Made by a program: the position numbers and the translations under genes. 64,000 nucleotides of DNA from the NCBI GenBank assembly GCA_019694165.1, contig JAIBCL010000002.1, positions 310,001 to 374,000 of the forward strand. Reading direction: 5' to 3'. Position 1 is the first letter of the stretch; every line of letters starts with the position of its first letter. Source of the DNA: Verrucomicrobiaceae bacterium (lineage in GTDB: Bacteria; Verrucomicrobiota; Verrucomicrobiia; Verrucomicrobiales; Verrucomicrobiaceae). Positions 7,111-42,377 of the stretch are shown here, piece after piece. The notes under the pieces are model-generated. The model did not search any database. It was not told where the DNA came from and saw only the letters and a program-made list of their open reading frames with translations.

Positions 7111-7122
7111 GATCTTGGGGGG

Positions 7123-10927: not shown

Positions 10928-11083
10928 ACGACTTCCCGCCCCGTGCTCCGACGGCACGCATACACCGGCAGCCCCGGCGCGATGGTCCCATCCCTGAGAG
11001 CCTGTCCGTCCCGCGTCCGTCGCCCACCCACCGCGATCCGCCGGCCATTTTCCACCTTGCGAGCGGATGCACGTTTGCCCAGA

Positions 11084-14000
11084 ATGCACCGCACTTCACC
11101 GAATCCCCATCTGCTCCCCATGCCCGAAGTCCCTCCACCAGGCTCCACACCCACAGGCTACCAGCGCACGCAGGGCGGCGGCGTGGCGTGGTCGCCGCCG
11201 AGCGCGGCGCATTTGGAGCAATTGCTCCCGCAGTATCACGTCGAGTGCCTGCTCGGGCGCGGCGGCATGGGCGCGGTTTACAAGGGCTTGCAGAAGTCGC
11301 TGGAGCGGCCCGTGGCCATCAAGATTCTGCCGCCCGATCTCGACGACGCCGACGCGAGCTACACGCAGCGTTTCAAGAACGAGGCCAAGCTCATGGCAAA
11401 GATGAACCATCCGGCCATCGTGCATGTGTACGACTACGGCGTGATCGATGGCAGGGCGCTCGCCGCAGGTAGGGCGCTTGCTCCTGCAAGCGCCGCCGGG
11501 ACGCCCCCAGCCTGCGATGCCACGAGAGACGATGGGGACGGCTCCCGGCCTGCCGCGGCGGCTGGAGGACCAGCCGCCCCACCTTCCGGCCCGCCGCTGT
11601 TCTACTTCGTCATGGAGTTCGTCAACGGCACCGACGTGCAGCAGATGATCCAGGCGCAGGGCCGCCTCCCGCCCGAGCACGCACTGGCCGTCACCGCGCA
11701 CGTTTGTGATGCGCTGAAGTATGCGCACGAGCACGGCGTCATCCACCGCGACATCAAGCCGGCCAACGTGCTCATCAACATGGAGGGCGCGGTGAAGGTG
11801 GCCGACTTCGGCTTGGCGAAGGCCAGCGACGGCGGCACCACCGGCATCACCAAGACCGGCATGGCGATGGGCACGCCCGATTACGTCGCGCCCGAGGCGC
11901 TGGTGATGGGCGTGGATGTGGATGCGCGTGCCGACGTTTATGCCGTGGGCGTGATGCTCTACACGATGCTCACCGGCCATGTGCCACGCGGTGCGTTCAA
12001 GCCGCCGTCGGTCATGGTGCCTGGAGTGGACCGGCGCTTCGACGCCATCGTGGAGCGTGCGATGCAAATGAACCGCGACGAGCGCTACCCGGGCGCCGCG
12101 CACATCCGGCGTGATCTTGATGCCATCCTTACCGCACCGCAGGTGCAGGCCGGAGGGCAGAGCAGCGCCGCAGTGCCGCGGCAGGTCGTGGCGCAGAAGC
12201 CCGTGTCCAAAGGACCGCAGAAACCGATGGGCAAGAGCGCGAACGTGCCGGTGGACGGCAGGCGCGTTCGCCAGAACGCGGAGGAGGCTGCCGGCACCCC
12301 GGACCGCACTCTGGCGAGTGCGCCTACGGGCAAGAGCAAGACGCCTCTGCTCATCGGCATCGGAGCCGTCGCCGCCATCGCGGTGGGGGCGTTTGTGATG
12401 ATGGGCGGCGAGGGCAGGCGCGTTCGCCAGAACGCGGAGAGCGCCGCCACCTCAAGCGGAATTCCCTCCGGGGCTGCGCAACTGGCGAGTTCCCCTACGA
12501 GCAGCGCCAAGCCCATCAAAGTGCGCGAGGAGCCGAAGCCAGCCGTCGCGCCCATCTCAAATTCCAAATCGCCGATCTCAAATCCCGCCCCGGCAAAACC
12601 CACGGACCAAACTCTGGCGAGTTCCCCTACGAGCGGCGCTGCCGCGAAGGACAAGTTCCCTCCCGGCCAGTGGGTGAAGGTGTTTACCAAGTTCGAGGAC
12701 TTGCCTGAGGAACTGCGCAAGCCGGACGCCCAGGTCAAGATCGACGACGGCAAATTGACGATCACTTCCACAAATGCACAAAAGATTCTGTGCAGCTCCC
12801 TTGCGTTTTCGAGCGCGGGCATACGAGTGAAGCAATCGCCAAAGAGCGCAGAGACGCAGCTCTCGCTAGCCAGGGAAAGCGATCACACCAGCATCAGGAT
12901 GCTGCTTCGTCCGGGAGTGGATGACATCTACATCCAGCGATGGAAGCCGAATGGAAGCATGGAATTGGCAAGACTCCGGGAGCCACGAGGCGTCGAGCGA
13001 TCCCTCGAACTGGCTGTAGTCGGGAGCACGGTGATCGCTCGAGCGGGTGGGCAGATCAGTCGATCACAAATCCCGCCGTCAGAGGTGATTGCGCCTTTCA
13101 AGCCTGAACTTTACGCGGCAGAAGCTTCACTCCGCGACATCGAAGTCATCAACCTCGACGGCATCCCCGAGGCCGAGGCGTTGAAGCTGATTGGCGTTGA
13201 TGAAAATGGCAACGATCTGCGGGATCCGGCGAAGACCATTGCGTCCTCAACGCCCGCGCCAGCTCCTACATCGTTACCCGTGTCCTCAACATCATCTCAG
13301 GTTCTCCCGCCGCGCGAGATGTTGGAATACAAGCTTCCCTTGTCCGCTCCTCAGCGTCCAAAGCAGCCATGTCGCGTCGTCGTGTGGCGGCTCGATGGCA
13401 AGCCGCTCTCCCAAGAGGAATCGGTTTTGACTCCGCCACCGGACCTCAAGGGCGTCGTTCAAATGGCGGCGTCGAACAGCGGGGACGGCAATGGTGGGTG
13501 GATCACACATGCGGTGGCGTTGAAGGCCGACGGCCACGTCGCCACATGGGGCCAATGCTCGAAGGTAAACGATGTGCCTCGTGATCTGGACAACGTCGTC
13601 AAAGTCGTGGCCGCATCAACTCGTTGCCTCGCGCTTCAAGCCAACGGCAAGCTGCGCACCTGGGGCCAAGTCATCAACCACGTTGAATTGGCCGCTCATC
13701 AGGGCGAGTTCGTTGATGTGACCGCAGCCGATGCTGTTGACATCGGATTGACCAAGAACGGCGAGGCGTTCGGTCGGATGAGCCCCACAGCGAAGGCACG
13801 GCAGAAAGAATTCGGACCGTTTGTCGCCCTTGGCTCGACGAAGTCCGGCTTCTCTCCTGCGATCACTCGCTCCGGTCAGCTCTGTCAATTGCACGTGCCA
13901 GGGGACGAGAGAGTCATGCCGCCAGGCGATTTTCTTCGTCGCCGGTTCACTTCGTGGGTGGTGTTGAGCGGCACCACGCCACGGCGAACGGTGGCTTTTG

Positions 14001-23985: not shown

Positions 23986-24354
23986 TCAAAGCTCTCCGAA
24001 GACTTTCTCGCGTACCGTCACGATGGCATCCAGCATGGCGTCCGCCTCCGCGCGCACTTTCTGATCGAGGCTGGATGCGCCGCGATTGTAGCGGCGGTAG
24101 AGGAGCTTCAAGTGCGCGCCGATTTCGTCCTTCGACATTTTCGCGGTGATACCGCACATGTCCTCCGGGGTGACGGGAGCTTTCTTTGGCGGCGGTGCGG
24201 CAGCCGGCTTCGCAGCGGTGACTTTGTCGAGCACACTGCCTTGCTTTGAAGGTCCTGGCGCGGGCTTCGCGGCGGGAGCAGGCGCAGGTTTCGCGGGCGC
24301 GGACTTTCCGCCGCCGAGCGACTTCGAGAGGGATTCCAAGACTCGTTTGAACAT
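23986..24354 (-). CDS. small Ala/Pro-rich linker protein, unknown
   Basis: 122 residues. A short N-terminal amphipathic helix (MFKRVLESLSKSLGGG), an Ala/Pro/Lys-rich linker at about 17-60, then a predicted helical C-terminal domain (VTPEDMCGITAKMSKDEIGA through REKVFGEL). No family is recognised. It is on the same strand 192 bp after the Hsp70 gene and may be the third gene of that unit, perhaps an adaptor; this is position-based inference. Confidence 0.6.
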   Translation of the reverse strand: MFKRVLESLSKSLGGGKSAPAKPAPAPAAKPAPGPSKQGSVLDKVTAAKPAAAPPPKKAPVTPEDMCGITAKMSKDEIGAHLKLLYRRYNRGASSLDQKVRAEADAMLDAIVTVREKVFGEL

Positions 24355-24546: not shown

Positions 24547-26037
24547 TCATTCGATCCGCATCGCCCGCAGATGGTGCGTGCGGCGCTTGAGTTCTTCTTC
24601 GGAAAGCACGCCGGCACCCTTGTAATTCACCGCCAGCTCGCGGGAGCGTCCGGACTGCTTGTCCACCACAAGGGCGCGCACGCGCTGGTTTTCGTCGTAG
24701 CTGAAGGTGACGGCGATCTCGCAGCCCTTCGGGCGGTTCGGCGGCACGTCGAGCGTCAGGCGGCCGATGACATCGACGAACTTCGGGTCCTCGTCCTCGC
24801 CCTGTGTGATGTCCACCTCGATGAGCTTTTCGTTGTCCTCGCTCGTCAGATACATCTGCGTGCGCGAACAAGGGATGGGCGTGTTCTTCGGGATGACCAC
24901 GGAGTTCTGGAGTTTTTCCTCACCGGTGGCCGCGTTGTAGATCATCGCCAGCGTCCCGTAGCTGGCATTGCACACCTCCTGAATGCGGCCGGATTTCCTG
25001 GCGAAGAGCGCGGCGCCGAGCGCCACGCACTCGTCCACATTGCCGCACGACTTGGGCGCCTTGGCGAAGTACTTTTCCAGCATGGTCTTCACCTTCGGCA
25101 GGCGCGTGCTGCCGCCGACGAGCACCACATGGTCGATGTCCGATGGCTTGAGCTTCACGGAGTCGAGCGCCTGCTCCACCAGCATGATGGTACGCGTGAG
25201 CATGCGGCGCACCATTTTCTCGAAGCCCTCGCGCGTGAGGTCGATGCGTGCAATGCCGCCGTCCTTGTCGTTGGCGATGGTGTCGTTCACGCGCTGGAGC
25301 TTCGAGAGCATCTTCTTCGCGTCTTCCGCGGCCTGGAGCACGCGGCGGCGGTGGCGCTCATCGGAGAAAAGCTCCGCGCCGGTCTGCTTGCGGTACTGCT
25401 CCTCGTAGGCGGTGAGCAGGATTTCGTCGAAGTTCCCGCCCCCGAGATGCCGCGCGCCTTCGGACGTGAGAATCTTGATGTTGTCACCACTCACTTCGAG
25501 GACCGTCACGTCCAGAGTGCCGCCGCCGAGGTCATACACGAGCACGCGGCCCTGCACGCCCTGGTTGTGCGCATAGTAAACCGCGGCTGCCGTCGGCTCG
25601 TTCACCAGCCGCTTCACTTTCATGCCGGCCATCTCCGCGGCAGCAATGGTGCTCTTGCGCGCCAGCTCGTTGAAGTTGGCCGGCACGGTGATCACGACTT
25701 CATCGATGTCGCCGATGATGCGCGAGCAGTCGCGCTTGAGCTTCGCGAGGATGAGCGCGGAGATTTCGGAGGGCGTCCACTTTTTGCCGTCGATGTCGAT
25801 CAGATGCTCCGGATCGTCCATGTGGCGCTTGATCTGGAAGATCGTGCGGTCGGGATCGCCGCCGTCGCGCGCGGCGCTGCCGACGAGCTTCACGTCCTCA
25901 TGCGCGTCGAAGTACACCACCGAGGGCGTCAGGCGCTCGCCATCCGCATTGGGCACGATCTCCGGGTTGCCGTCAGATTTCAGGTAAGCCAGCCCCGAGA
26001 GCGTGGTGCCGAGATCGATTCCTACAAATTGAGCCAT
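24547..26037 (-). CDS. lidless Hsp70/DnaK-family protein
   Basis: 496 residues against about 640 for DnaK. The nucleotide-binding domain is intact: GIDLGTTLSGLAY, ITVPANFNELARKST, LVNEPTAAAVYYAHN, VYDLGGGTLDVTVLEV and VLVGGSTRLPKV. A short beta-sandwich substrate-binding domain follows (VVIPKNTPIPCSRTQMYLTS onward). The chain stops at about the point where the helical lid would start, ending LSEEELKRRTHHLRAMRIE. Such short Hsp70s usually work with dedicated partners rather than as general foldases. It starts 39 bp after the giant FHA/coiled-coil gene, whose C-terminus looks GrpE-like. Confidence 0.93.
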   Translation of the reverse strand: MAQFVGIDLGTTLSGLAYLKSDGNPEIVPNADGERLTPSVVYFDAHEDVKLVGSAARDGGDPDRTIFQIKRHMDDPEHLIDIDGKKWTPSEISALILAKLKRDCSRIIGDIDEVVITVPANFNELARKSTIAAAEMAGMKVKRLVNEPTAAAVYYAHNQGVQGRVLVYDLGGGTLDVTVLEVSGDNIKILTSEGARHLGGGNFDEILLTAYEEQYRKQTGAELFSDERHRRRVLQAAEDAKKMLSKLQRVNDTIANDKDGGIARIDLTREGFEKMVRRMLTRTIMLVEQALDSVKLKPSDIDHVVLVGGSTRLPKVKTMLEKYFAKAPKSCGNVDECVALGAALFARKSGRIQEVCNASYGTLAMIYNAATGEEKLQNSVVIPKNTPIPCSRTQMYLTSEDNEKLIEVDITQGEDEDPKFVDVIGRLTLDVPPNRPKGCEIAVTFSYDENQRVRALVVDKQSGRSRELAVNYKGAGVLSEEELKRRTHHLRAMRIE

Positions 26038-26076: not shown

Positions 26077-29000
26077 TTACTGGCTTGAGGTCCTCACCTC
26101 CACCTTGCGGAGGATTACCTCGCGGCCGTCAGGGTGCGAATAAATAAAGCCTGGCCGGTAGTTCTCAATCACCTTCGCCTTCGACTTGCCCGGCACGCTG
26201 TCCACGATGGTGATGCGGTGCCGCAGTGCCACGTCCACCTCCGTGCCGGCGGCGACCTCGAATTCCGTGACGCCGTGCTGGTGCAGGATGTCCTCGAACG
26301 AAGCACGCAGCGTGCGGAGCTGCTGGTCGATGCCGCCGCCGTTCACTCCTGCATAGCGCTGGATGAGCACGTCGATCAAATCGAGACGTTTGATGAGATC
26401 GTTGGCAAAGATCAGCACGGTGGCCTCCTCGGTCGGCAGGCCGCGGCGCATGACCTCGTGCTTCTCTTCGAGTTCCATGAGCTGCCCGCGCAGCCGCTTC
26501 TCGATCTCCTGCCACTGCTTCATCTTCGCCTCGGCCGCGGCATAGTCGCCCTTGCGCTTCTCCATGGCGGCGAGGTCGCCCTGCAGCTTCTCGACGGACG
26601 CCACGCCCTGCTTCTCCACACCGGCCAGATCGTGTATGCGCCGCTCGAGGGCCTCGACGTTCGCCCGGCGCTCGAGATCGGCCTTCTCCAGCAGGTCGGC
26701 CTGCCGCTGCAGCTCCGCTTCGTATTTGCGGAACTCCGCCTCCGCCGCCGCACGCCGGTCGCGGTCGGTCTTCTCGAAGGCTTCCGCCTGCTTCTGCAAA
26801 TCCGCCGCAAATTTCTTGAACTCGGCCTCAGCGGCCACGCGGCGCTCCGCACCGGACTGCTCCAACACGTCCGCCTGCCGTTGCAGATCCGCGGCATATT
26901 TCTTCAACTCCGCCTCGCCGGCCGCGCGCTCCTTCTTGATCTGCTCCATGCGCGCCAGCTCGCGGCTGAAGGTCTCCTGGAGCGTGTTGAGCTTCACCTG
27001 CAGCGCCAGCTCCTGCTCCGCCGCCTCCTTGAGCGACTTGCTCGTCTCCTGCTGGCGTGACTCCACCATCGAGAGCGCCTCGCTCATCGACATGAGCCGC
27101 CCCCCCGTGTGCGTGATCTCGGCAAACTGTGCTTCCACCGCCTTGATGCGGGCCTTGCCTCCCTCGCACTCCGCCTCCAGGGCGCGCACCTGCTCACGCT
27201 GCGCCTCGATCGTCTTCGCCAGCCGCTCTTCGTCCGCCTTCAGGCTCTGCACGCGGTCCAGCCGTGCGCGCATCTCGTCGTCGATGCCGCTGGCCTGCTT
27301 GCGGGCGGTTTCGAGGGTCTTGCGGTGCTCGTCGGTCTGTTTCTTCAAGTCCGCCAGCGCCGCCGCCGCGGACTCGTGCGCCTCCTGCACCGCCTTGAGC
27401 TTCGCATTCATGGCGTCCACTTCCTGCTGCGTCTTCATCACGCGGTCCTCGCGGATGCGGTGCGCCTCCTCTAGGGTGGAAATGTTAGCCTGCAAGTCGG
27501 CGAGCTTTTTCTTCGAGCCTTCGGTATCGACGTTCAGTCGGGTGACGAATTGAGAGGTCTCGTCCCGCTGCTTCGCCACCGTGGCCAGCTCGGCCCGCGC
27601 AGCCGCCAGCTCCTTCGTGAGCGCGGGGATGTCCTTCTTCAACTGCTTCTCCTCCGCACGCGCGGCCTCCAGCGCCTGCTCGGCTGCGGCGCGCTTTGTC
27701 TCGGCCTGCTCGAGCACCGCGGCCGCCTTCTCGACGCGCTTCTCCGCATCGGCGCAGCGGGTCTCCTCGGCCTTCGCGCGCTTCGCGAGATCGTCGCCCT
27801 TCGCCTTCTCATCCGCCGACTTTTGCGTCAATGCTGCCAGGTCCGACTGCAGCCTTGCCTGCTGTTTCGCAAGATCGGCGAGCGTCTTTTCTTCCGCGAG
27901 GCGCTGGCGCTCCGCCTCCTTCAAGCCCGTGGTCGCATTCGCCAGACGGCTCTCGACATCCCCGAGCTGCGTGAGCCGCTTCTCAAGCGACTCCACCTTC
28001 GGCGCCAGTTCCGCGAGGCGGGTTTCAGTCCGCTTCATCGTCTCCAGCCTGCCGGCTGTCTCGGCGTCCAAAGTCTTGCGCTTCTCCGCGATGCTGGCGT
28101 CCAGTCCGGCCGACTCCGCGCGCAGTGTTTCGAGCTGCTTTGCCGCCGCATCTTGCTCGGCGCGTGATTTCGCCTGCACCGACTCCAAATCCGCCGCCGC
28201 CTTCTTCAGAGCGGCGGCGGTTTCCTCGCGTTGCTTCTCCAGCGCGGCCAGCTCATCGCGCGCACGTTTCGCATCGGCCCCGAAGCGTGCCACCTCGGCC
28301 TCGAGTTCACCCTTCTGCTTCTTCAGCGCTTCTGCCTGCGGCTGCAGCTCTTTGGTTTCACCTGAGAGCTTCTCGAACAACGTCTGCACGTCCTTGAGCC
28401 GCCCATCCGTGTCCGCCAGTGCCGCGAGTTTCTTCTCAATCTCCGAATTCTGTTTCGCGAGGTCTCCACAGCGCTTCCTGGCTTCGGCCTCCTGATCTTC
28501 GAGAACGACGACGCTCGCGCGCTTCGCCTCCAAGGCATCCTCGACGCGCCGGAGTTCCTCCAAGGTCGTGGCGATCTTCTTCTGCTGATCGCGCTCGTCG
28601 TTCACGAGTTTCGCCACGGCGGCTTCGAGCACCGACGATTTCTGCTGCACTTCGTTCCATGAAGCATTGTGCTTCACAAACAATGCCTCGGCCTCGGCCG
28701 CGGCCTTTTGATTCATCGCAGCCAGTTGCGCCGTCTGCTCCAGCTCGCTCCTGGCCTTTGTAATCTGCGCCTGCAGGGCGTCGATCTCGCCCCTCAACTC
28801 GTCGCGCGATTTTTCGAGTCGCGCGCTCTCGTCGGCGAGCGACTTCGCCCGCCCGTCACTTTCTGCCAGCGACTTGCCGGCAGCCTCCACGCGCGCCGTC
28901 AGTTTCCCCATTTCGTCCTCCAAATCCGCGCGCTGCGTCTCCGCCTGCTGCACGGCGGACTCCGCCGCCGCGCGACGGGACTGGAGAGACTTCACCAGCG

Positions 29001-32000
29001 CGTGCTGCGCTGATCCCTGCTCAGCCAGCGTCTCGAGTTCGGCAGTCTTCGCATTCTTTTTGTCTTCGAGATCGGCGATCACCGACTCAAGCTGCGAGCA
29101 CTGCGCCTCAGCCCGCTTGAATGCCTTGTCAGCGTCACGCGCACGTTCCTCCGCGTCATCAGCTTCCGCACGTCTCGCAGCCAAAGCGGCCTCCGCTACC
29201 TGGATGCGATCTTTGTGCTGGGATTCTGTCGCCGCCAGGCCCAGCACCGCGGCTTCGAGCGCCGCGGCCTTGTCCTTCAAATCCTTCCAGCCCGACTCGT
29301 GTTGAGCAAACAGCGCCGAAGCCGCCGTCGCAGCCTCATGCTTCTCGGCGTGCAGCTTCGTCGCCTCGTCGAGTTCCCGCCGCACACGCGCGATCTGCTC
29401 GTGCAGCGCGGTCGCCTGCGTCTCGGCCTCGGTCCTAGCCCGCTCAGCTTTCTCCGCATCGGCGGTGAGCGCCGCGAGCCGCTCCTCGGTCTTCCTGGCG
29501 AGTTCCTGCTGCGTGCGCAGGAGGCTCTCCACGTCCACCAACTTCGCCTGCGCGGCCTGCATCTGGCGCGCGGCCTCCTGGTGCTGGTGTTCCGCATCCG
29601 CGACGGCCTTCGCCTTGCCGTCGATCTGAGACTGCGCGTGCTCGAGATCAGCCCGCGTCTGCGTAAGCTTCAGCGTCGTCTGCTTCAACTGCTCGTCAGC
29701 GGTCGTCCGCTTTTTCTCAAGCTGCTGCCCCTCGTCCGCAAGCGCCTGCAATCGCTGCTCCGCCTCTCCCAGGAGCTGCTGCCGGGAAACAAGCAACGCC
29801 TGCGCCTCAGCCAGCTTCTTCTCTGCCTCCTGTGTCTGGGCGGTGACCGACTTCACCTTCGCATCCGCGTCAGCGGCGGCCTTCTGGTTCTCGGCCGACT
29901 GCTTCGTGGCGGCATTGAGTTCCTCCCTCGCCTTCGCAAGCAGCACCGTGAGCGCCTGCAATTCCTCACCGGCCTTCGCGCGCTTCGTCTCCGCATCGCG
30001 GCTGTCTGCATCGAGCGACTTCGCACGCTGCTCGGCCACCGAGACGAGCTGCTGCTGTGAAGCGAGCGCCGCCTGTACTTCAGCAAGCTTCTTCTCGCCC
30101 GCCTGCACGCGCTCCTCGATGTCCTTCACCCTCGCCTCCGCTTCGGACGCCGCCTGCTTCTTCTCCGCGCTGACTTTCGTCGCCGCATCGAGATCGGCCT
30201 TCGCCTTCGCCAGTTCCGCCGTCAGCGATTCAAGCTGGCCGCTCGCTTCACCGCGCCGCTGCTCGATCTGCCGCGTCTCGTCGGCGAGGTCCTTCAATCG
30301 TTGCCCGGCCTCCGCCACGAGTCGCTGCTTCGACTCCAGCGCGCCCGCCGCTTCCGTGTGCGAACTCTGCGCCGTGGCGAGCAAGGCGGAGACGGCCTGA
30401 TGCTTCGAGTCGGTTTCCTTGAGCGCCGACTCGGTTTCCTCATGGCGCTTTGCCAGCGTTTTCAACAGCGCGTGCTGGGCCGCGCCCTGCTCGGTGAGCT
30501 TCGCCAGCTCCTCGCTCTTCGACTCGCGCTGCTGGTTGAGGCTCACGACGAGCGCGGCCAGCTCCGTGCGCTGCGCTTCCACGGCCTTGAGCGCCTTGCT
30601 TGCATCGCCGAGTCGCGAATCAGTCGCGGCGAGTTCGTCCAGCTTCTTCGTCAGCTCGGCCTCGCGCACTTTGAGTTTCTCGACACGGACCTCGACCTCC
30701 TGCAGTTCGTTCGTCTTCGCGGCGATCGCCGTCTGTGACTCGGCGGTGCGCGCCTTCAGCGTCGCCTCGGTCGCGGTGATCTGCCCGCGCAATTCTCCGA
30801 GCTGTGCTGCCTGCGCGGCGGCCTCCTGCTTTGTCTTCTCGACCGATGCACGCGCATCGTCGAGCTGCCTGGTCACCTGCGTGAGCGTCTGGCTTTTCTG
30901 CTCCGCCTCGCGCACGCGCGCCTCCGCTTCGACTGCGTTCTTCGTCAGTTCAGAGATGCGCGACTCAAGACCGGCCGCGTTCTTGCGCAGCGAAGCAAGC
31001 TGGTGCTCCGCCAGCTCCTTCTCCGCGGCGAGCTGGCGCGCCTGCGTCTCGATGGACTGGCGCTCTTCGCGAGCGGCCTGCGCCTCGGCGCGCCGTTGCG
31101 CGAGGAGCTTCTCCACGCTGGCCATCTCGCTCTGTGTCGTCTTGTGCTGCCCGAGCAGGGCGGCCAGCGCCATCTCAGCGGCGGACTTCTTCGACTCCAG
31201 ATCACCCAGCGACTTCGATACATGGCCGAGCTGCTGCTGCGTGCCGCTGAGTTCCGACACACGCACCTCGTGCCGCGTGATCTCGCCCTGCACGTTCTTC
31301 AACCGCGCCTCCGCAGACTGCGCCGCGGCCTGTGCGTCGGCCAGACGCTGCTCCGCCTTCGCGGCCTCCGCCTGAGTCCTTGTGATGTGCGACTGCGCAT
31401 CAGCATCGCTCTTCTGCAGATCGCCAATGCGCTTCTCAAGCTCGCGCAGCTCTCCCTGGCGCGCGTCATGCCGTCCGTTCAGCGATGCGAGCGCGGCTTC
31501 AAGCTCGCTCTTCTTTGATTCCAGATCAGCCAGCGCCCGTGTAATGCCGCCGAGCTTCTGCTGCGTGCCGGAGAGTTCCGTGACCTTCGCCTCGTGCGCG
31601 ACGGCCTCCGTGCGCAGGGCACCGAGCCGCCCCTCCGCCCCTGCCACCTCGGCGCGCAATTCCGCCAGCCGTTTTTCCAACGACGAGACCTCGCCGCGCT
31701 TCGCCGCCTCGTCTCCCATCAAAGCCGCCAGCGCCGCATCGAGCGCGCCCTTCTTCGACTCCGCATCCGCCAGCGACTTGGCCGCACCACCGAGCCGCTG
31801 CTCCAAACCCGCCAGTTCGGCCGCCTTGCCTTCGCGCTCCGCGATGTCCTTCGCCAGCGCAGCCGCACGGGCTTCCGCCGCGGCAATCTCGCGTGCGATC
31901 TCGTCACGCCGCCTTTGCGCCTCCGTGGCGGACTTCTCGTCGGCAGACTGCTTTGCCGCCAATGCCGCGACCGCGGCATCAAGCGCGCCGCGCTTCGATT

Positions 32001-33243
32001 CAAGTTCGGCGAGCGACGATTCGAGCACGCCACGCTTCGCCTCCAATTCGGTGAGCGACGAGCCGAGCGTCGCACGCTTCGACTCCAGTTCCGCCACCGA
32101 TGCCGCCACGCCGCCGAGCTTTGCATGCTCTCCGGACAAGGAGGCCACCCTCGCCTCCTGCGAGGCTGCCTGCTGCCGGACAGCAGCCAGTTGCGCCTCG
32201 GCTGCGGCGATGTCATCGCGCAGTGACGCCGCACGTTTCGCGGCTTCCTGTTCCTCCGCCGCAAAGCGCCCGGCCTGATCTTGTTGCGCCTTCGCGCTCT
32301 CGGCGGCGCGCGAGCGGCTGGCTTCGGCATCGCGCTGCGCGGTGGCAACGTCCTTGCGGGCCGATTCGATGCCTGATTGCAACGCCGAGAGTTCCGCCTT
32401 CGCGGCAGCGACTGCGGCGACGGATGACTCCAGCTCTGACTTGTTCTTCGCAAGCGCAGCGGCCTCCGCCTTCAATCCGGCGAGCTTCGCGGCGGTTTCA
32501 TCCGCATCCTTCTTCCCACGGGCAAGTTCTTCGTCCCGGGCCGCCCGCGCCGCTTCACGTTCGCGCTTGAGCTTCTCGATCTCTTCGCGGAGAGCCGCGG
32601 CTTCGGCGGCGGTCGCGCCTGCTGGCGATGCCGGAGGTGTCACGCCTGCTGGCGGTGGCGGCGGCTTCGTTGCCAGCGTGGCTGCCGGCGTCTGGCCTGC
32701 GACCGAAGGCTTTGGCAGCGGCACGGTGGAAGGCGGCGGTGGAGGGGGCTTCGCCGGCGCACGGGAGAGCGGCGCCTTCGTCGGCTCCACCTTCGATGTA
32801 TCGGGAGCCGGCACTTCCGGCGCGGGCGCGATGGTGAGCGGCTCCTTCACCCGCACAGACTCTGTATCTCCGCGGCGTCCATCCGTGCGGGCGGGCTCCG
32901 CCTTCGCGGAAGGCGCGGCCTTCAGCGTCTCGGACGAGGTGGAGTCTTTCGCCGCACGATCCCGGAAGCGCGCGTGAAGCTGGCCGAAGCTGACCTTGTC
33001 ACCGCCCTTCACCCGGGCGCGGGTGACACGCTTGCCGTTGACGAAGGTGCCGTTGGAGGACTTCAGGTCCACCACCTCGTAGGTGCCGTCCGGCTGGCGG
33101 ACAAACTCCGAGTGAAAGCCCGAGATGAAAGTGTTGTCGATGACGATGTCGTTGCTGGCATCACGCCCGAGGGAAAGCCGGTCCTCAAGCAAATCGAAGA
33201 CGAACTCATTGCCGTCGTTGAGATTGAAAGCCAGATAAGGCAT
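26077..33243 (-). CDS. giant FHA / coiled-coil protein with GrpE-like C-terminus
   Basis: 2388 residues. N-terminal FHA domain at about 1-95, with LGRDASNDIVID, the S-x-x-H of ISGFHSEF and SSNGTFVNGKRV: all phosphothreonine-binding positions are kept. A Pro-rich linker (about 105-215) includes KPPPPPPSTVP. About 2,050 residues of Ala/Glu/Lys/Gln heptads follow, with internal repeats: LGG-x-ALADLESKK-type units of about 100 residues, and three 30-residue copies of EFKKFAADLQKQAEAFEK type near the end. The last 115 residues (LIKRLDLIDVLIQRYAGVNG, ILHQHGVTEFEVAAGTEVDV, ENYRPGFIYS, EVILRKVEV) follow the GrpE pattern of helices plus beta domain. It is probably a filamentous scaffold that docks to the adjacent Hsp70. 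It is intact. Confidence 0.92.
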   Translation of the reverse strand: MPYLAFNLNDGNEFVFDLLEDRLSLGRDASNDIVIDNTFISGFHSEFVRQPDGTYEVVDLKSSNGTFVNGKRVTRARVKGGDKVSFGQLHARFRDRAAKDSTSSETLKAAPSAKAEPARTDGRRGDTESVRVKEPLTIAPAPEVPAPDTSKVEPTKAPLSRAPAKPPPPPPSTVPLPKPSVAGQTPAATLATKPPPPPAGVTPPASPAGATAAEAAALREEIEKLKREREAARAARDEELARGKKDADETAAKLAGLKAEAAALAKNKSELESSVAAVAAAKAELSALQSGIESARKDVATAQRDAEASRSRAAESAKAQQDQAGRFAAEEQEAAKRAASLRDDIAAAEAQLAAVRQQAASQEARVASLSGEHAKLGGVAASVAELESKRATLGSSLTELEAKRGVLESSLAELESKRGALDAAVAALAAKQSADEKSATEAQRRRDEIAREIAAAEARAAALAKDIAEREGKAAELAGLEQRLGGAAKSLADAESKKGALDAALAALMGDEAAKRGEVSSLEKRLAELRAEVAGAEGRLGALRTEAVAHEAKVTELSGTQQKLGGITRALADLESKKSELEAALASLNGRHDARQGELRELEKRIGDLQKSDADAQSHITRTQAEAAKAEQRLADAQAAAQSAEARLKNVQGEITRHEVRVSELSGTQQQLGHVSKSLGDLESKKSAAEMALAALLGQHKTTQSEMASVEKLLAQRRAEAQAAREERQSIETQARQLAAEKELAEHQLASLRKNAAGLESRISELTKNAVEAEARVREAEQKSQTLTQVTRQLDDARASVEKTKQEAAAQAAQLGELRGQITATEATLKARTAESQTAIAAKTNELQEVEVRVEKLKVREAELTKKLDELAATDSRLGDASKALKAVEAQRTELAALVVSLNQQRESKSEELAKLTEQGAAQHALLKTLAKRHEETESALKETDSKHQAVSALLATAQSSHTEAAGALESKQRLVAEAGQRLKDLADETRQIEQRRGEASGQLESLTAELAKAKADLDAATKVSAEKKQAASEAEARVKDIEERVQAGEKKLAEVQAALASQQQLVSVAEQRAKSLDADSRDAETKRAKAGEELQALTVLLAKAREELNAATKQSAENQKAAADADAKVKSVTAQTQEAEKKLAEAQALLVSRQQLLGEAEQRLQALADEGQQLEKKRTTADEQLKQTTLKLTQTRADLEHAQSQIDGKAKAVADAEHQHQEAARQMQAAQAKLVDVESLLRTQQELARKTEERLAALTADAEKAERARTEAETQATALHEQIARVRRELDEATKLHAEKHEAATAASALFAQHESGWKDLKDKAAALEAAVLGLAATESQHKDRIQVAEAALAARRAEADDAEERARDADKAFKRAEAQCSQLESVIADLEDKKNAKTAELETLAEQGSAQHALVKSLQSRRAAAESAVQQAETQRADLEDEMGKLTARVEAAGKSLAESDGRAKSLADESARLEKSRDELRGEIDALQAQITKARSELEQTAQLAAMNQKAAAEAEALFVKHNASWNEVQQKSSVLEAAVAKLVNDERDQQKKIATTLEELRRVEDALEAKRASVVVLEDQEAEARKRCGDLAKQNSEIEKKLAALADTDGRLKDVQTLFEKLSGETKELQPQAEALKKQKGELEAEVARFGADAKRARDELAALEKQREETAAALKKAAADLESVQAKSRAEQDAAAKQLETLRAESAGLDASIAEKRKTLDAETAGRLETMKRTETRLAELAPKVESLEKRLTQLGDVESRLANATTGLKEAERQRLAEEKTLADLAKQQARLQSDLAALTQKSADEKAKGDDLAKRAKAEETRCADAEKRVEKAAAVLEQAETKRAAAEQALEAARAEEKQLKKDIPALTKELAAARAELATVAKQRDETSQFVTRLNVDTEGSKKKLADLQANISTLEEAHRIREDRVMKTQQEVDAMNAKLKAVQEAHESAAAALADLKKQTDEHRKTLETARKQASGIDDEMRARLDRVQSLKADEERLAKTIEAQREQVRALEAECEGGKARIKAVEAQFAEITHTGGRLMSMSEALSMVESRQQETSKSLKEAAEQELALQVKLNTLQETFSRELARMEQIKKERAAGEAELKKYAADLQRQADVLEQSGAERRVAAEAEFKKFAADLQKQAEAFEKTDRDRRAAAEAEFRKYEAELQRQADLLEKADLERRANVEALERRIHDLAGVEKQGVASVEKLQGDLAAMEKRKGDYAAAEAKMKQWQEIEKRLRGQLMELEEKHEVMRRGLPTEEATVLIFANDLIKRLDLIDVLIQRYAGVNGGGIDQQLRTLRASFEDILHQHGVTEFEVAAGTEVDVALRHRITIVDSVPGKSKAKVIENYRPGFIYSHPDGREVILRKVEVRTSSQ

Positions 33244-33392
33244 GCGCCGCAGGAAAAGCCAAGATATTTAAGAAAGGCGAAAATAATGACTCGCAGCGGG
33301 CTTGGCAATCTTTATCCAATGACGAGACGGAAAACTGCGCCGGAGGCGGGTGGCGCAGTCACGCAATTCAGACGCGTGCCGCCATAAGAAAG

Positions 33393-33419
33393 AAGAGCGC
33401 GGGGATCAACCGCGCTCTT
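33393..33419 (-). terminator. rho-independent terminator
   Basis: 10-bp stem AAGAGCGCGG/CCGCGCTCTT with a 7-nt loop. On the minus strand it is followed by CTTTCTTAT. It lies 34 bp after the stop of the secreted protein gene at 33453 and separates that unit from the giant coiled-coil gene, which must then have its own promoter in 33244-33390. Confidence 0.75.
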
Positions 33420-36292: not shown

Positions 36293-36321
36293 TTGCAAAG
36301 TTGCGCCGTATTTTGTAGAAT
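36293..36321 (+). promoter_or_regulatory. promoter of pseudokinase (and possibly tubulin) unit
   Basis: TTGCAA (36293-36298), a 17-bp spacer and TAGAAT (36316-36321), inside an AT-rich stretch (about 36230-36370) unlike the surrounding GC-rich DNA. Apart from this promoter region, the 347 bp between 36045 and 36391 hold nothing I recognise. The -35 box coincides with the only far-upstream TTG start-like codon, so translation must begin downstream. Confidence 0.6.
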
Positions 36322-36391
36322 TTTCTCTCGACAGCGAAGGTTGAATTTTGTTTTCTTAAAAACTCCCTCGATTCCTCAGTTTCAAAAAGCC

Positions 36392-38587
36392 GTGCCGCCC
36401 GCCAACACCCTATCTGCAACGAGCCAGCCTGAGCAGGAGAGGTTTGATCATTACCTCATCGCGCGAAATCGCGACGGTCAGCCGATTCAGTTGTCGCGAT
36501 CAAGCGACGAGTCGGCATTTTTGGCGTTCGATCTGCACTCGCGGCGGCTGGTAGAATTGCACGTCATTCACGGCGGTCACAATGACGACCCGGCCCGGAG
36601 GCGCTCGTCCTACGAGCGAGCTGTGCAGGCTGGTGAACTCCGCGGAGGAAGCTTTCCCCGAATTCTCGAGGTGGGAGAAGACGACGGACTGGTTTACTAC
36701 TCCAGCACGCTGAACGATGGGGAGTTTGTGGAAGACTACATCGCGCGACGAGGCGCACTGCCGCCGGCGACGGCCTTCTGCATGCTGCTGCAACTGCTGG
36801 AGGACCTCGTCCCTCTTCAAAGCTACCACCGGCTGGTGTCCAGGCTGCGGCTGAACCGCCTGCTGGTCACCGCACTGGAGGACACATTCCTGCACCTGCG
36901 AGCATATGACTACGGGCTGGCGGAAAAGGAGCAGCGCTCCGATGGCGACCACAAGCGCCTCGCCGCCGAAGTGTGCGAGCTGATCTTCCTCCTGCTCACC
37001 GGCAAGACCTACGGTGGCGACAATCCGGACCGCTATCCGGCGCTCACCTGCCTGCCGTCGGGCTTGCGTACGACCTTGCGCACGGTGCTCCCTGACAAGT
37101 CGCAGGCCCCCTCGACACTGGAGAAGCTGCGTGATGACGTGCGCGAAGCATTCGCGGCGCTGGTGAGCAACTTGCAGACCCGCAGTACCCGCAAGCATGT
37201 GGTGGTCACCAATGAAAACGCGCTGCCGAAATCCCAACTCCAGGATCTGCTGCTCGAGAGCATCCCGCTCGATGCGCTGCTCACAGGCCGCTTCACCGTT
37301 GAAAACGCGGACATCGCACGCCGCTATCCGTTCTCCATTCCGGCGCGCAATTTGAAGAACGACCAGCCGGTCACCGTACACCTGCTGCCTCCGTCACGCA
37401 TCGTGCCGAAAGATCACTACGAGGCCGTGCCCTTGCAGATGTGGCGTTTCGATCCGCAGAAGCATCCGAACATCCTGCGCTCGCTCAGCGTGTGGGAGAA
37501 TCCGGACTGGACGTTCCTCACCGAGGAGCGCGAGGGCGGCTTCGCCCTCAGCCGCCTCATTGCCGAGCGAATCACGCTGAATCCGGCGGAGGTGCTCGTG
37601 CTGCTGAAACAAGTTCGCGACGGCATCGGCCAGGCGCTTGAGTGCGGCGTGCAGCGTGTGGACCTCCATCCGTCAAACATGGTGCTCCTGCTCGCCAAGG
37701 CGGCAACGATGCAGCAGCGTGAATTTGACCGGCTCATGCAGAAGCGCATCGACGCCTGGCCGCCGTTCAAGCTCAAGCTGCGCCCGCATCTAACGATGCG
37801 CAGCCTCTACGAGCCGCTGCTTGCCGACCTGCCCTCCATGGGCGCGCAACACGATCAGGATTTCCGCAGCCGCTCCTTCGTCGCGCTGGCGGCTTATATG
37901 CTCACCGGTGAGCGCCTGAGCGGCCGCTCGATCGAGTTCCCCGAGACTGTGCCACAGCCGCTCGCCCAATACATCGCCTCGGCGCTCGAACTCGCACGCA
38001 CGCCGGACGCCACCCCGACTCCTGACGAGTTCCTCGCCGGTTTTGAAAAGCTCGCCGCCACCTCCGACCAAAGTGGTCTGGACGCCGGCTTCCTCCGTGG
38101 CCCGGCCGTGGCGCACGCGGACATGGAGAGCGCCGGTTCCGTTTCCGATTTCGACGAAGATGCGGGCGACACCGGGCAGGCGCCTGCTTTTGTTCCGTCG
38201 AAGTACCAACCGCGCGCGTTCGGCATCGGGCGCGAGCCGCCGAAAAAGAAGAGAGCGGCTGCAATCTTGATCTGGGGCGGCGTCGCTGCGGCGCTGATTG
38301 TAACGATTGTCGCGCTGACTGCGGGCGACTCGAGTCCCCCCGCGACACAGGACGGCACGAATGCAGTCGCTTCTGCGGATGGTGCGCCCGCTAACGCCAG
38401 TGGCGCGCAACCCGCGAAGCCACAGGGAGCGGCAAAAAAGATGCTCATCATGATTCGCAAAGCCATCATCCCCACCCGTGAAGAGATCGACGATCTGCGC
38501 CGCAAACAGGCCGAGGCACTCAAGACCGAGCGCGAGGCAGCGATGAAACCGGAAGGAAAGCTCGCCGAACGCAGCTCGGCTCAATGA
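36392..38587 (+). CDS. tandem pseudokinase with C-terminal membrane helix
   Basis: 731 residues from GTG 36392, chosen because upstream codons overlap the promoter. Two degenerate kinase-like domains follow each other. The first has LRAYDYGLA in place of the DFG region and no HRD. The second has GVQRVDLHPSNMVLLL, resembling the HRDxxPxN catalytic loop, but no glycine loop, catalytic Lys or DFG that I can find. Near residues 621-643 is a single membrane helix (AAILIWGGVAAALIVTIVAL) preceded by KKKR, then a short Ala-rich stretch and a charged helix (EEIDDLRRKQAEALKTER). It ends 144 bp before btubA on the same strand. A regulatory or scaffolding role is likely. No catalytic activity is expected. 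Confidence 0.75.
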   Translation: MPPANTLSATSQPEQERFDHYLIARNRDGQPIQLSRSSDESAFLAFDLHSRRLVELHVIHGGHNDDPARRRSSYERAVQAGELRGGSFPRILEVGEDDGLVYYSSTLNDGEFVEDYIARRGALPPATAFCMLLQLLEDLVPLQSYHRLVSRLRLNRLLVTALEDTFLHLRAYDYGLAEKEQRSDGDHKRLAAEVCELIFLLLTGKTYGGDNPDRYPALTCLPSGLRTTLRTVLPDKSQAPSTLEKLRDDVREAFAALVSNLQTRSTRKHVVVTNENALPKSQLQDLLLESIPLDALLTGRFTVENADIARRYPFSIPARNLKNDQPVTVHLLPPSRIVPKDHYEAVPLQMWRFDPQKHPNILRSLSVWENPDWTFLTEEREGGFALSRLIAERITLNPAEVLVLLKQVRDGIGQALECGVQRVDLHPSNMVLLLAKAATMQQREFDRLMQKRIDAWPPFKLKLRPHLTMRSLYEPLLADLPSMGAQHDQDFRSRSFVALAAYMLTGERLSGRSIEFPETVPQPLAQYIASALELARTPDATPTPDEFLAGFEKLAATSDQSGLDAGFLRGPAVAHADMESAGSVSDFDEDAGDTGQAPAFVPSKYQPRAFGIGREPPKKKRAAAILIWGGVAAALIVTIVALTAGDSSPPATQDGTNAVASADGAPANASGAQPAKPQGAAKKMLIMIRKAIIPTREEIDDLRRKQAEALKTEREAAMKPEGKLAERSSAQ

Positions 38588-38731: not shown

Positions 38732-40204
38732 ATGAAGGTTAACAACACGATCGTCCTGTCCGTCGGACAGGCTGGAAACCAGATCGCCGCTTCGTTCTGG
38801 AAGACCATCTGCCAGGAGCACGGCATCGACCCGCTCAGCGGACAGACTGCGAATGGACAGGACCCTCGCGGAAACTGGGGCGCATTCTTCACCCGCCTCG
38901 GCGATGGCACGGGCGGCAGCTACGTCCCGCGCGCCGTGATGGTGGATCTCGAACCGAGCGTGATCTCGCATGTGAAGTCAGTGTCCGGATCGCTCTTCAA
39001 TCCCGCCAACCTCATCAGCCGCACCGAGGGTGCCGGCGGCAATTTTGCCATCGGTTACCTCGGCGCGGGGCGTGAAGTCCTGCCCGATGTGATGGCGCGT
39101 CTCGATCAGGAGATCGACAAATGCGACAACGTCGGCGGCATCATCATCCTCCACTCGACGGGTGGCGGCACGGGCAGCGGACTTAGTTCGCTCATCATCG
39201 AGGCCATCAAGGAAAAGAACCCCGAGATACCCATCCTCAGTTGCGCCATTCTGCCGTCACCGCAAGTCAGCTCCGTGGTCACGGAGCCTTACAACACCGT
39301 CTTTGCCCTCAACGCTCTGCGCCGCACTGCGGACGCGTGCCTCATCTTCGACAATGAAGCGCTCTTCGAGCTGGCGCACCGCAAGTGGAACATCGAAAGC
39401 CCCACCGTCGATGATCTGAACCTCCTGATCACCGAAGCGCTCGCGGGTCTCACCGCCTCCATGCGTTTCAGCGGCTTCCTCACCGTGGAGATCAGCCTGC
39501 GGGAACTGCTTACCAATCTGGTGCCACAGCCCTCGCTGCATTTCCTGATGTGCGCCTTCGCGCCGCTCACGCCTCCGGATCGCAGCAAATTCGAGGAGAT
39601 GAGCGTCGAGGACATGATCCGCTCCCTCTTCGACAACGGCTCCGTCTTTGCCGCATGCTCGCCGATGGAAGGCCGCTTCCTTTCCACCGCCGTACTCTAC
39701 CGCGGCATCATGGACGACAAGACCGTGGCAGACACCGCGCTGGCGAACATCCGCGAGACCCTGCCGCTCACCTACTGGATCCCCACCGCGTTCAAGATCG
39801 GCTACGTCGAGCAGTCCGGCGTCTCCCATCGCAAAAGCATGGTGCTGCTGGCCAACAACACCGAGATCGCCCGCGTGCTCGACCGCATCTGCGCGAACTT
39901 TGACAAGCTCTGGCAGCGCAAAGCCTTCGCAAACTGGTACCTGAACGAAGGCATGACCGAGGAGCAGATCAATGCACTCCGCGCCTCCGCGCAGGAACTC
40001 ATCCAGAGCTACCAGGTCGCGGAAGAAAGCGGTGCAAAGGCCAAGGTACAGGACGCCGGCCGAGGTGCCGCCGCGATCTCAAAGGCCGCCGCACCCGCCG
40101 CCAGCATCGCCCCCGTTCCCGAGCTTGCGCCAGACGAGCCGCCCTCATCGGGCGATCCAGGAGTCGTCAGCCTGCGCGAGCTGGTGGACCGCCGCCGCGC
40201 ATGA
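38732..40204 (+). CDS. btubA: bacterial tubulin BtubA
   Basis: 490 residues. An AGAGGA ribosome site lies about 9 bp before the ATG. Tubulin features: VGQAGNQIAASFW (T1 loop), the GTP-binding signature GGGTGSG at 144-150, EPYNTVFALN (T5 region), MRFSGFLTVEISLRELLTNL with Glu258 at the position of the alpha-tubulin catalytic Glu, and APLTPP after S8. BtubA heterodimerises with BtubB to form the bacterial microtubule. A C-terminal Ala/Pro-rich extension beyond the tubulin fold (about 430-490) lacks the acidic tail of eukaryotic tubulins. The stop overlaps the ATG of a mini-ORF (ATGA). Base composition looks like that of its neighbours. Confidence 0.98.
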   Translation: MKVNNTIVLSVGQAGNQIAASFWKTICQEHGIDPLSGQTANGQDPRGNWGAFFTRLGDGTGGSYVPRAVMVDLEPSVISHVKSVSGSLFNPANLISRTEGAGGNFAIGYLGAGREVLPDVMARLDQEIDKCDNVGGIIILHSTGGGTGSGLSSLIIEAIKEKNPEIPILSCAILPSPQVSSVVTEPYNTVFALNALRRTADACLIFDNEALFELAHRKWNIESPTVDDLNLLITEALAGLTASMRFSGFLTVEISLRELLTNLVPQPSLHFLMCAFAPLTPPDRSKFEEMSVEDMIRSLFDNGSVFAACSPMEGRFLSTAVLYRGIMDDKTVADTALANIRETLPLTYWIPTAFKIGYVEQSGVSHRKSMVLLANNTEIARVLDRICANFDKLWQRKAFANWYLNEGMTEEQINALRASAQELIQSYQVAEESGAKAKVQDAGRGAAAISKAAAPAASIAPVPELAPDEPPSSGDPGVVSLRELVDRRRA

Positions 40205-40275
40205 GCCACGCATCCCTTTTCAAACAGCAGCAGAACAAGCAGCACACCTATTTCCAAGGAGGACCACACGAGTGA
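40201..40275 (+). CDS. 24-codon bridging mini-ORF between btubA and btubB
   Basis: The frame starts with the ATG inside btubA's ATGA stop and ends with the TGA inside btubB's GTGA start. It encodes 24 residues beginning MSHASLFKQQQNKQHTY and ending GGPHE, Gln-rich and without known homology. It has no ribosome site of its own, so ribosomes finishing btubA would reinitiate here. Its last codons contain the strong AAGGAGGA of btubB. The likely role is translational coupling that balances the two subunits. Whether the peptide accumulates is unknown. Confidence 0.5.
   Translation: MSHASLFKQQQNKQHTYFQGGPHE
40256..40263 (+). promoter_or_regulatory. strong ribosome-binding site of btubB
   Basis: AAGGAGGA with 8-9 bp to GTG 40272. 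It is the best Shine-Dalgarno sequence seen in the operon and decides the btubB start. It lies inside the bridging mini-ORF. Confidence 0.9.
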
Positions 40276-41549
40276 GAGAGATTCTGAGCATCCACGTCGG
40301 CCAGTGCGGCAATCAGATTGCCGACCGCTTCTGGCGTCTTGTACTGCGCGAGCACGGGCTCAATGAAGCCGGCGTCCCGAAGGACGGCGGCCACGCCTCG
40401 GCCGCAAACTCGAACATGGAGGTCTTCTTCCACAAGGTGCGCGAAGGGAAGTACGTCCCCCGCGCCGTGCTCGTCGATCTGGAGCCCGGCGTCATCGCCC
40501 GCATCGAAGGCGGTGACATGTCGCAGCTCTTCGACGAAGGCAGCATCGTGCGCAAGATCCCCGGTGCAGCGAACAACTGGGCGCGCGGCTACAATATTGA
40601 GGGCGAGCGCGTCATCGACCAGGTGATGAACGTCGTCGATTCCGCCGTGGAGAAAACCAAGGCCCTGCAAGGCTTCCTTGTCACGCACAGCATCGGCGGC
40701 GGCTCCGGCTCCGGCCTCGGTTCCCTCATCCTCGAAAAGCTCCGCTCCGCCTATCCGAAGAAGAAAATCTTCACCTTCTCCGTCGTCCCCTCGCCGCTCA
40801 TCTCCGACAGCGCCGTGGAGCCCTACAATGCCGTGCTCACCCTGCACCGCATGCTCAACAACGCCGACGCCGCCGTGGTGCTGGACAACGAAGCGCTCTT
40901 CCGCATCGCAAAAGCGAAGCTCCGGCGCAGTCCGAACTACATGGACCTCAATCACATCATCGCGCTCATCATGTCATCGGTGACCGCGTCCCTGCGCTTT
41001 CCCGGCAAGCTGAACACCGACCTCGGCGAGTTCGTCACCAACCTCGTCCCCTTCCCCGGCAATCACTTCCTCACCGCCTCCTTCGCGCCCATGCGCGCGA
41101 CCGGCCAGGAGCAGGGCCGCATCGAATTTGCCGACCTCGCCAAGGAGACCTTCGCGCAGGAGAATTTCACCGCCGCCATCGACTGGACCGGCGTCTATCT
41201 CGCCGCCTGCGCCCTCTTCCGCGGCGACGTGCGGGCGAAGGAGGTCGATGAAAACATGGCCGCCATCCGCAAGACGCTGAACTACGCCTCCTACCTCCCC
41301 GCGCAGGGCGGCCTCAAGCTCGGCGTCGCCGAGACCGCGCCCGAGGGCTTCGCCTCCAGCGGCCTCGCCCTCGTCAACCACACCGGCATCGCCGCCGTCT
41401 TCGAGCGCCTCGTCTCGCAGTTCGACATCATGTTCGACAATCACGCCTACACCCACTGGTACGAAGGCGCCGGCGTCTCCCGCGATGCCATGTCCGCCGC
41501 CCGCAACGCCATCGCCAGCCTCGCCAAAAGCTACCGAGACGCCAGCTAG
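40272..41549 (+). CDS. btubB: bacterial tubulin BtubB
   Basis: 425 residues from GTG 40272. Tubulin motifs: ILSIHVGQCGNQIADRFW at the N-terminus, a Ser-containing GTP signature GGGSGSG at 142-148, EPYNAVLTLHRML, LRFPGKLNTDLGEFVTNL with Glu253 at the catalytic T7/H8 position, VPFPGNHFL and the C-terminal helix ending in NAIASLAKSYRDAS. It partners BtubA in protofilaments. The sequence looks beta-tubulin-like around the GTP site and alpha-like in H8, the mosaic known for bacterial tubulins. It is separated from btubA by 67 bp that are fully occupied by a mini-ORF. Confidence 0.98.
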   Translation: MREILSIHVGQCGNQIADRFWRLVLREHGLNEAGVPKDGGHASAANSNMEVFFHKVREGKYVPRAVLVDLEPGVIARIEGGDMSQLFDEGSIVRKIPGAANNWARGYNIEGERVIDQVMNVVDSAVEKTKALQGFLVTHSIGGGSGSGLGSLILEKLRSAYPKKKIFTFSVVPSPLISDSAVEPYNAVLTLHRMLNNADAAVVLDNEALFRIAKAKLRRSPNYMDLNHIIALIMSSVTASLRFPGKLNTDLGEFVTNLVPFPGNHFLTASFAPMRATGQEQGRIEFADLAKETFAQENFTAAIDWTGVYLAACALFRGDVRAKEVDENMAAIRKTLNYASYLPAQGGLKLGVAETAPEGFASSGLALVNHTGIAAVFERLVSQFDIMFDNHAYTHWYEGAGVSRDAMSAARNAIASLAKSYRDAS

Positions 41550-41597
41550 CCAAATCCTGCCCGCCCTCGCCGCCCCCTCCGTCCTTCACCCCTCGCC

Positions 41598-42377
41598 GTG
41601 GACTCCGCCCTCGAGAAACAGATCGCAACCGCCGCGCACGCCGTAGAAGACGCGCGCCGCCGCGCACATTACGATCCGGCTTCCATCGGCGAACTCATCG
41701 AGCAGATGAGCGTGCTGGCCGACCTGCGGCAGAAGGAAGGCGACTTCAGAAAGGCCGAGTCGCTCTATCGTGAGGCATTGTTTCGCGTCCAGGAGACGCG
41801 CAAGCCAGACCAGGCCCTCATCGCCGGCATCTGGTCCCTCATCGCCCACTTGAACGACCGCTGGGGCCGCATGGACGAGGCCGCCAAGGCATACGAGAAA
41901 GCCCTCGAGATCGGCGAGAAGCACGGCCTCCACGACAGCGACGCCATCGCCACCATCAAGAACAACCTCGCCGTCATCTTCAAAACCCTGCGCGACAACG
42001 CCAAGGCCGAGCGCTATTACAACGAGGCGCTCGACTCCTTCCGCAGGCTCCACGGCGAAAACTGCGCGCAAGTCGCCTCCATCTACAACAACCTCGGCGT
42101 CCTCCACTACTCCGGCCTCGATGTCGAGCGCGCTCAGGAGATGCACGAGAAAGCCCTCGCCATCCGCCAGCGCCTCGGCGAGGACCAGCTCGACCCGAAC
42201 GATCTCTCCCAGACCTACATCAACCTCGGCGCCGTTTACAAAGCCACCGGCGACTTCCAGAAAGCCGAGGAATGCCTGGAGCGCGCCAAGTCACTCCGCG
42301 CCGCCAACGGCTCCTACAGGCCCCGCCCCCGCCGCGCCGCCTCCCTCCTCATCGACTCCGCCGCCGCCTGGCGCTGA
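41598..42377 (+). CDS. bklc: bacterial kinesin light chain-like TPR protein Bklc
   Basis: 259 residues from GTG 41598, 48 bp after btubB with no obvious ribosome site. Four to five tetratricopeptide units of kinesin-light-chain type can be read: KEGDFRKAESLYREALFRVQ, GRMDEAAKAYEKALEIGEKH, LRDNAKAERYYNEALDSFRR, LDVERAQEMHEKALAIRQRL, TGDFQKAEECLERAKSLRAA. This is the third gene of the known btubA-btubB-bklc operon. The product is reported to associate with bacterial microtubules and membranes. The basic C-terminus (RPRPRRAA) could aid membrane or polymer contact; that is inference. Confidence 0.95.
   Translation: MDSALEKQIATAAHAVEDARRRAHYDPASIGELIEQMSVLADLRQKEGDFRKAESLYREALFRVQETRKPDQALIAGIWSLIAHLNDRWGRMDEAAKAYEKALEIGEKHGLHDSDAIATIKNNLAVIFKTLRDNAKAERYYNEALDSFRRLHGENCAQVASIYNNLGVLHYSGLDVERAQEMHEKALAIRQRLGEDQLDPNDLSQTYINLGAVYKATGDFQKAEECLERAKSLRAANGSYRPRPRRAASLLIDSAAAWR

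Follow-up and report, generated by a model that had tools for sequence, protein, structure and literature searches.

We report a three-gene operon that, with a probability of roughly 0.55, encodes a dedicated Hsp70 machine built on a giant scaffold protein, whose tethered exchange factor would serve the operon's own lidless Hsp70. The operon lies within the window, by which we mean the whole stretch of 64,000 nucleotides from a Verrucomicrobiaceae bacterium that was analysed. Predicted structures, operon organization and gene content all speak for an exchange factor that is tethered and dedicated to a private, lidless Hsp70. The genes are the following.

26077..33243, minus strand: scaffold gene (open reading frame), 2388 aa, with FHA domain, Pro-rich linker, coiled coil and GrpE-like domain
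24547..26037, minus strand: Hsp70 (P0002), 496 aa, with NBD and SBD-beta and no lid (PF00012, 342 bits)
23986..24354, minus strand: third operon gene, 122 aa, with a variable Ala/Pro-rich N-terminus and a conserved 62-aa C-terminal domain

The original prediction, made from the letters alone, had given the correct coordinates for the scaffold and left its strand unstated, which is minus (33243→26077); the absence of a lid in the Hsp70 and the third gene had both been overlooked. The four parts of the scaffold are located as follows.

32983..33174, minus strand: FHA domain, aa 24-87 (PF00498, 63.8 bits, E 2e-17)
32599..32958, minus strand: Pro-rich linker, about aa 96-215 (from the sequence)
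26449..32598, minus strand: coiled coil with internal duplications, about aa 216-2265 (from periodicity and repeats)
26137..26568, minus strand: GrpE-like domain, aa 2226-2369 by Pfam, its globular part about aa 2273-2388 (from Pfam, the model and structure matches)

The N-terminal FHA domain and the Pro-rich linker after it, both recognized previously, were confirmed by the Pfam match and by the sequence, respectively. In the FHA domain, residues G26, R27, S41, H44, N64, G65 and N69 are kept in 41-45 of the 46 alignment rows, and the residues that usually contact the phosphopeptide (GR, SxxH, NG) are thereby retained; the Arg that frequently follows the FHA Ser elsewhere is replaced by Gly, Ser or Ala in the scaffold family. 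From the presence of this domain we infer that the scaffold may be recruited to phosphothreonine. The linker is far longer in the scaffold homologue of one relative with an 8.22 Mb genome (G067). Upstream of the scaffold, 12 relatives encode a small FHA protein that has a Pro-rich stretch and one hydrophobic helix resembling a membrane segment (L044:2387-3034, L042:15824-16468 and 10 further relatives); this gene is absent from the window.

The approximately 2,050 residues of heptads noticed earlier form a true coiled coil. Hydrophobic residues recur in them with a peak period of exactly 3.5 residues and a power of 0.69, far above the 0.155 +/- 0.021 of shuffles, and only three Pro residues occur between aa 216 and 2265. 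The internal repeats are likewise real, since the best 60-residue self-matches score 159, 159, 156 and 145, whereas the highest score that any of 30 register-preserving shuffles reached is 99. The homologues share a common MPYLAFNL start and a (K/R)TSS end, and 39 complete homologues range in total length between 821 and 2388 aa, the window copy being the longest of them. The coil thus behaves as a length-variable spacer joining two conserved ends.

GrpE is normally a small free protein serving DnaK. In the full scaffold, the GrpE profile PF01025 scores 25.8 bits, exactly at the gathering cut-off and borderline if taken alone, and when the C-terminus is scanned by itself the score rises above it to 33.2 bits. 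The same profile matches all 51 homologous C-termini at E 0.01 or better (best E 2e-11). The AlphaFold model of the C-terminus (pLDDT 89) contains a long helix, two shorter helices and a strand-rich domain, which is the GrpE order. In a Foldseek search of the PDB, the best nine chains are all GrpE or GrpEL1 at probability 1.00, with the next match at E 0.3, and VIA-align superimposes the model on 1dkg_A (Z 12.5, 2.5 A over 103 residues) and 9bls_B (Z 12.3, 2.1 A over 105 residues). The GrpE pattern that the original prediction had read in this C-terminus has therefore passed the profile and structure-prediction check, and by sequence and predicted structure together the C-terminus of the scaffold is a GrpE fold. 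Its divergence is considerable: hhalign aligns it with the ordinary GrpE of the family over 139 collinear columns at E 0.0022 with a probability of only 13%, and PDB sequences searched with the GrpE end, either as a single sequence or as a profile, returned no GrpE because the similarity is too low, so that Pfam and fold are needed for this assignment. Across most of the family the domain keeps 60-75% identity, and the strand-rich part and the Gly-Val that follows the bundle helix share in this conservation; the GrpE and FHA domains are the most conserved parts of the scaffold.

The Hsp70 of the operon belongs to the Hsp70 family without being a DnaK equivalog: it scores 354 bits where the NCBIfam cut-off is 822. 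Its PF00012 match covers profile positions 2-509 of 599; it aligns with DnaK over aa 1-486, and its residues 1-471 align structurally with residues 1-471 of Geobacillus DnaK at Z 30.9. The protein ends shortly past SBD-beta, 33 aligned homologues are equally long (mean column identity of 91% among aligned homologues), and its model, with a pLDDT of only 67 from a shallow alignment, contains no lid helices.

In the window, the Hsp70 start lies 39 nt past the scaffold stop. The same arrangement, with the Hsp70 downstream of the scaffold and in the same direction, holds for all 38 fetched loci that include the Hsp70 in full, where the gap is 21-201 nt and mostly 30-45. Two candidate signals precede the scaffold.

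33280..33308, minus strand: sigma-70-like promoter match (9/12) ahead of the scaffold; a consensus match only, where chance alone would give 0.6 +/- 0.8 such matches in the region
33393..33419, minus strand: likely terminator of the upstream gene with a 10-bp stem; taken as a class, such stems show no enrichment relative to shuffles

Given this likely terminator, the scaffold is probably the first gene of the transcription unit, as judged from consensus matches only.

A search with the C-terminus located the scaffold in 63 of the 68 genomes of the window's family, in one copy each and always at the end of a long open frame; named carriers include Prosthecobacter, Brevifollis and Verrucomicrobium records. 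Profile searches of 387 genomes of the phylum found none outside this family of aquatic and soil bacteria. An Hsp70 ortholog, complete or partial, is present in at least 58 of the 68 family genomes. The Hsp70 and the small third gene are kept or lost jointly in the genomes tested: together they lie away from the scaffold in six (G006, G007, G008, G011, G028, G031), are missing beside a retained scaffold in three (G058, G066, G067), and are absent along with the scaffold in three genomes that are 88-96% complete (G027, G043, G044). An Hsp70 with the scaffold demonstrably missing was found in none of the genomes tested. On gene content, G029 (68% complete) and G056 and G057 (contig ends) are uninformative. 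The apparent case of G032 is a contig-edge artefact, the edge bearing the Hsp70 end and the third gene, and its removal lowers the count of parallel losses, which originally stood at two events on well-supported branches with G032 included. The absences are scattered on the DnaK tree, where only some branches are well supported, and hence the co-loss statistics are weak. Besides the operon pair, the family encodes an ordinary DnaK and, usually, an ordinary GrpE (140-166 bits in most genomes), which argues for specialization of the operon pair. The choice of the neighbouring Hsp70 as partner, made in the original prediction, is thus borne out in part: the pairing is backed by conserved order, spacing and gene content. 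Counted against our preferred reading are the three genomes with a scaffold and neither of the other genes, the small number of independent co-loss events, the low similarity to ordinary GrpE, and a Gln at a functional position of the GrpE domain that is discussed below.

The persistence of the scaffold alone is illustrated by the complete genome of G067, where the Hsp70 site is overwritten by repeats and the GrpE domain of the scaffold is intact. At the expected Hsp70 site of this genome (L051, about 6000-9000), many copies of a short repeat surround a small REP-associated transposase-like gene. Such persistence would fit a scaffold that is mainly a cytoskeletal or cell-architecture filament, with the Hsp70 and the small protein as assembly factors docking via the GrpE domain, and so would the great length, variable size and internal duplication of the coil and the membrane-anchored FHA protein upstream in 12 relatives. 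A filament, however, has no need of a full GrpE fold, and the GrpE and FHA domains, rather than the coil, are the best-conserved parts of the protein; we consider a primarily architectural role rather improbable.

A further line of evidence concerns the predicted interface between the GrpE domain and the Hsp70. In E. coli, GrpE helices 94-106 and 117-129, the latter including G122, touch the DnaK hairpin 276-302, and the substitution G122D abolishes GrpE activity (PMC10825016).

26320..26322, minus strand: codon of Q2308, the residue that alignments place opposite G122 of E. coli GrpE

This position, a functional contact and not a Pfam-defining residue, is Gln in 51 of 51 scaffolds and Gly in all 15 ordinary GrpEs of the family, and the hairpin of P0002 is several residues shorter than that of DnaK. 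The Gln and the shorter hairpin would constitute a matched change, which fits a re-tuned private pair and equally fits a loss of exchange activity, since G122D inactivates the E. coli protein. A GrpE domain without exchange activity might only clamp or store the lidless Hsp70 on the coiled-coil arm. The invariance of the Gln, the low sequence similarity of the scaffold end to ordinary GrpE and the three genomes that retain a scaffold without Hsp70 all point in that direction; against this, Gln differs from Asp, the partner hairpin is altered too, and the GrpE domain is strongly conserved, with its 60-75% identity extending over most of the family. We regard such an anchor as unlikely.

Homologues of the third gene follow the Hsp70 in 35 loci. 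The 62-aa domain of this protein is possibly J-like, although it lacks HPD: the J domain (PF00226) gives no Pfam match, the HPD position reads YNR, and hhalign finds a similar register at E 0.049 over 25 columns only, a result equalled by 3 of 60 column shuffles. The Hsp70s nearest to P0002 outside the family in our phylum sample, from the genomes G329 and G403, are 42-46% identical to it and likewise short. In both genomes, a weak GrpE-like gene precedes the short Hsp70 (Pfam E 5.5e-4 and 0.01, both under the cut-off) and a TerB-type or similar gene follows it, with a C-terminus homologous to the conserved domain of the third gene (E 1.4e-10 and 1.4e-3 in a small database; 2e-28 and 3e-26 with a profile that includes these proteins). 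Of the two distant proteins, only that of G403 has a TerB Pfam match. Within the phylum samples, strong matches to the domain and close short Hsp70s occur in the same nine genomes. The order GrpE, Hsp70, third gene thus recurs without the scaffold in two distant genomes, and so the GrpE-like gene, the short Hsp70 and the third-gene domain make up a recurring module, whose GrpE part the window's family has fused to an FHA-headed coil. The cassettes (L218 in G403, L219 in G329) comprise the weak GrpE-like gene, one or two short Hsp70s and the TerB-type gene; that of G403 also includes an M48 peptidase and adjoins a type I restriction-like gene.

Hsp70-GrpE genes have been described in conflict-type neighbourhoods (PMC7159879). 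The operon might accordingly be read as a specialized Hsp70-GrpE-TerB cassette triggered by infection or damage, a stress or conflict system for which one could cite, besides those neighbourhoods, the joining of short Hsp70s to TerB-type and M48 peptidase genes in the distant relatives and the restriction-like neighbour in one of them. Near-universal, single-copy, vertical inheritance in the family is unlike the patchy occurrence of defence genes, and the PADLOC matches consist of coiled-coil similarity and one marginal Hsp70 match; a conflict role seems to us very unlikely, and the assignment as a defence system was dropped.

The window also contains a bacterial tubulin operon at 38732-42377 (plus strand), which encodes BtubA (PDB 2bto, E 3e-266) and BtubB together with a TPR protein that resembles bacterial kinesin light chain; about 42 of the 68 family genomes have a BtubA ortholog. 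The scaffold, 5.5 kb away, could in principle be an organizer or linker of bacterial microtubules, given that BtubA, BtubB and the kinesin-light-chain-like gene share the window with it. Yet many scaffold genomes lack BtubA, including all of genera g9-g11, the two are usually on different contigs where both are present, and no Btub gene lies beside the scaffold in 20 relatives. On this distribution across the family we rejected the link, which we hold to be highly improbable. Directly upstream of BtubA, a 764-aa kinase-like protein (36293-38587, plus strand) has a sub-threshold Pkinase match and one predicted membrane-like stretch, and is possibly a pseudokinase. A 1614-aa protein kinase with weak RCC1/WD40-like similarity is encoded at 10943-15787 (plus strand), and no link between it and the operon was found. 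The original prediction had suggested the large kinase of the window as a possible source of the phosphorylation signal; we found no support for this, as about 10 kb separate the gene from the operon and the scaffolds of relatives have no recurrent kinase family next to them. For want of a conserved kinase neighbour, the window kinase was also discarded as a partner.

In the mechanism that we propose for the dedicated machine, the GrpE domain of the scaffold would act as the nucleotide exchange factor of the operon's lidless Hsp70 and would probably dimerize like GrpE. In such a dimer the two chains would run parallel in the coiled coil, so that a pair of FHA heads would sit at one end and a paired GrpE head at the other; if continuous, the coil of approximately 2,050 residues would span about 300 nm (at 0.1485 nm per residue). 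The FHA heads may dock on a threonine-phosphorylated partner, which would place the Hsp70 cycle (ADP release, ATP binding and client release) at a phosphorylation-marked site. The third protein, which always accompanies the Hsp70, could be a client-delivering or J-like partner. The fullest version, a complete machine of exchange factor, lidless Hsp70 and J-like partner without HPD on an arm of up to about 300 nm, placed by phosphothreonine, with its turnover spatially set by Ser/Thr kinase signalling and its interface re-tuned against cross-talk with DnaK-GrpE, is offered only tentatively, and we would not expect all of it to hold.

No description of this architecture came up in openly accessible papers, whether FHA was searched together with GrpE or Verrucomicrobia together with FHA and coiled coil. 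If the proposed reading is true, the fusion of GrpE to a giant phosphopeptide-binding coil, near-universal and single-copy in the family and sharing an operon with its own lidless Hsp70 and an unnamed third protein, would represent a chaperone machine positioned by signalling. It would raise testable questions about exchange factors as spatial organizers, about how two GrpE-Hsp70 pairs are kept apart and about the role of a lidless Hsp70. Among the members of the host family are Prosthecobacter and Verrucomicrobium, whose cells are unusually built, with prosthecae and bacterial microtubules, and isolates are available.

Several known systems share parts of this design. With SMC/Rad50-type proteins the scaffold has in common a long heptad coiled coil, which SMC models match; it differs in lacking the ATPase head, and all matches are far under the cut-off (194 bits against 567 for an SMC model, over the coil only), which ruled out an SMC-like ATPase. 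GltG (NF033760) is an example of the FHA proteins that have long linkers or coiled coils. These likewise combine an N-terminal FHA domain with an extended region, but the match to GltG (58 bits, cut-off 650) takes in no more than the FHA domain and the linker, and GltG has no GrpE end. DnaK-DnaJ-GrpE operons and DjlA-type systems (TerB plus J) also bring together an exchange factor, an Hsp70 and a small helical protein as a single unit, and TerB is carried by DjlA-type co-chaperones as it is by the distant versions of the operon cassette; the third protein here, in contrast, lacks the HPD motif, and its J-like identity is only putative. DnaK (PF00012) shares with the operon Hsp70 the full NBD and SBD-beta and the catalytic-core motifs (Z about 31-33), whereas the 496-aa operon protein has no lid, a shorter GrpE-contacting hairpin and an altered interdomain linker, and resembles a lid-deletion construct such as 5obu. 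GrpE itself (PF01025; E. coli 1dkg, Geobacillus 4ani, human GrpEL1 9bls) shares with the scaffold end the stalk helix, two bundle helices and strand-rich domain, with an alignable DPN-type turn region and C-terminal V-x-V strand; but an ordinary GrpE stands alone at about 200 aa, whereas in the scaffold the stalk continues into a coil of approximately 2,000 residues with an FHA head.
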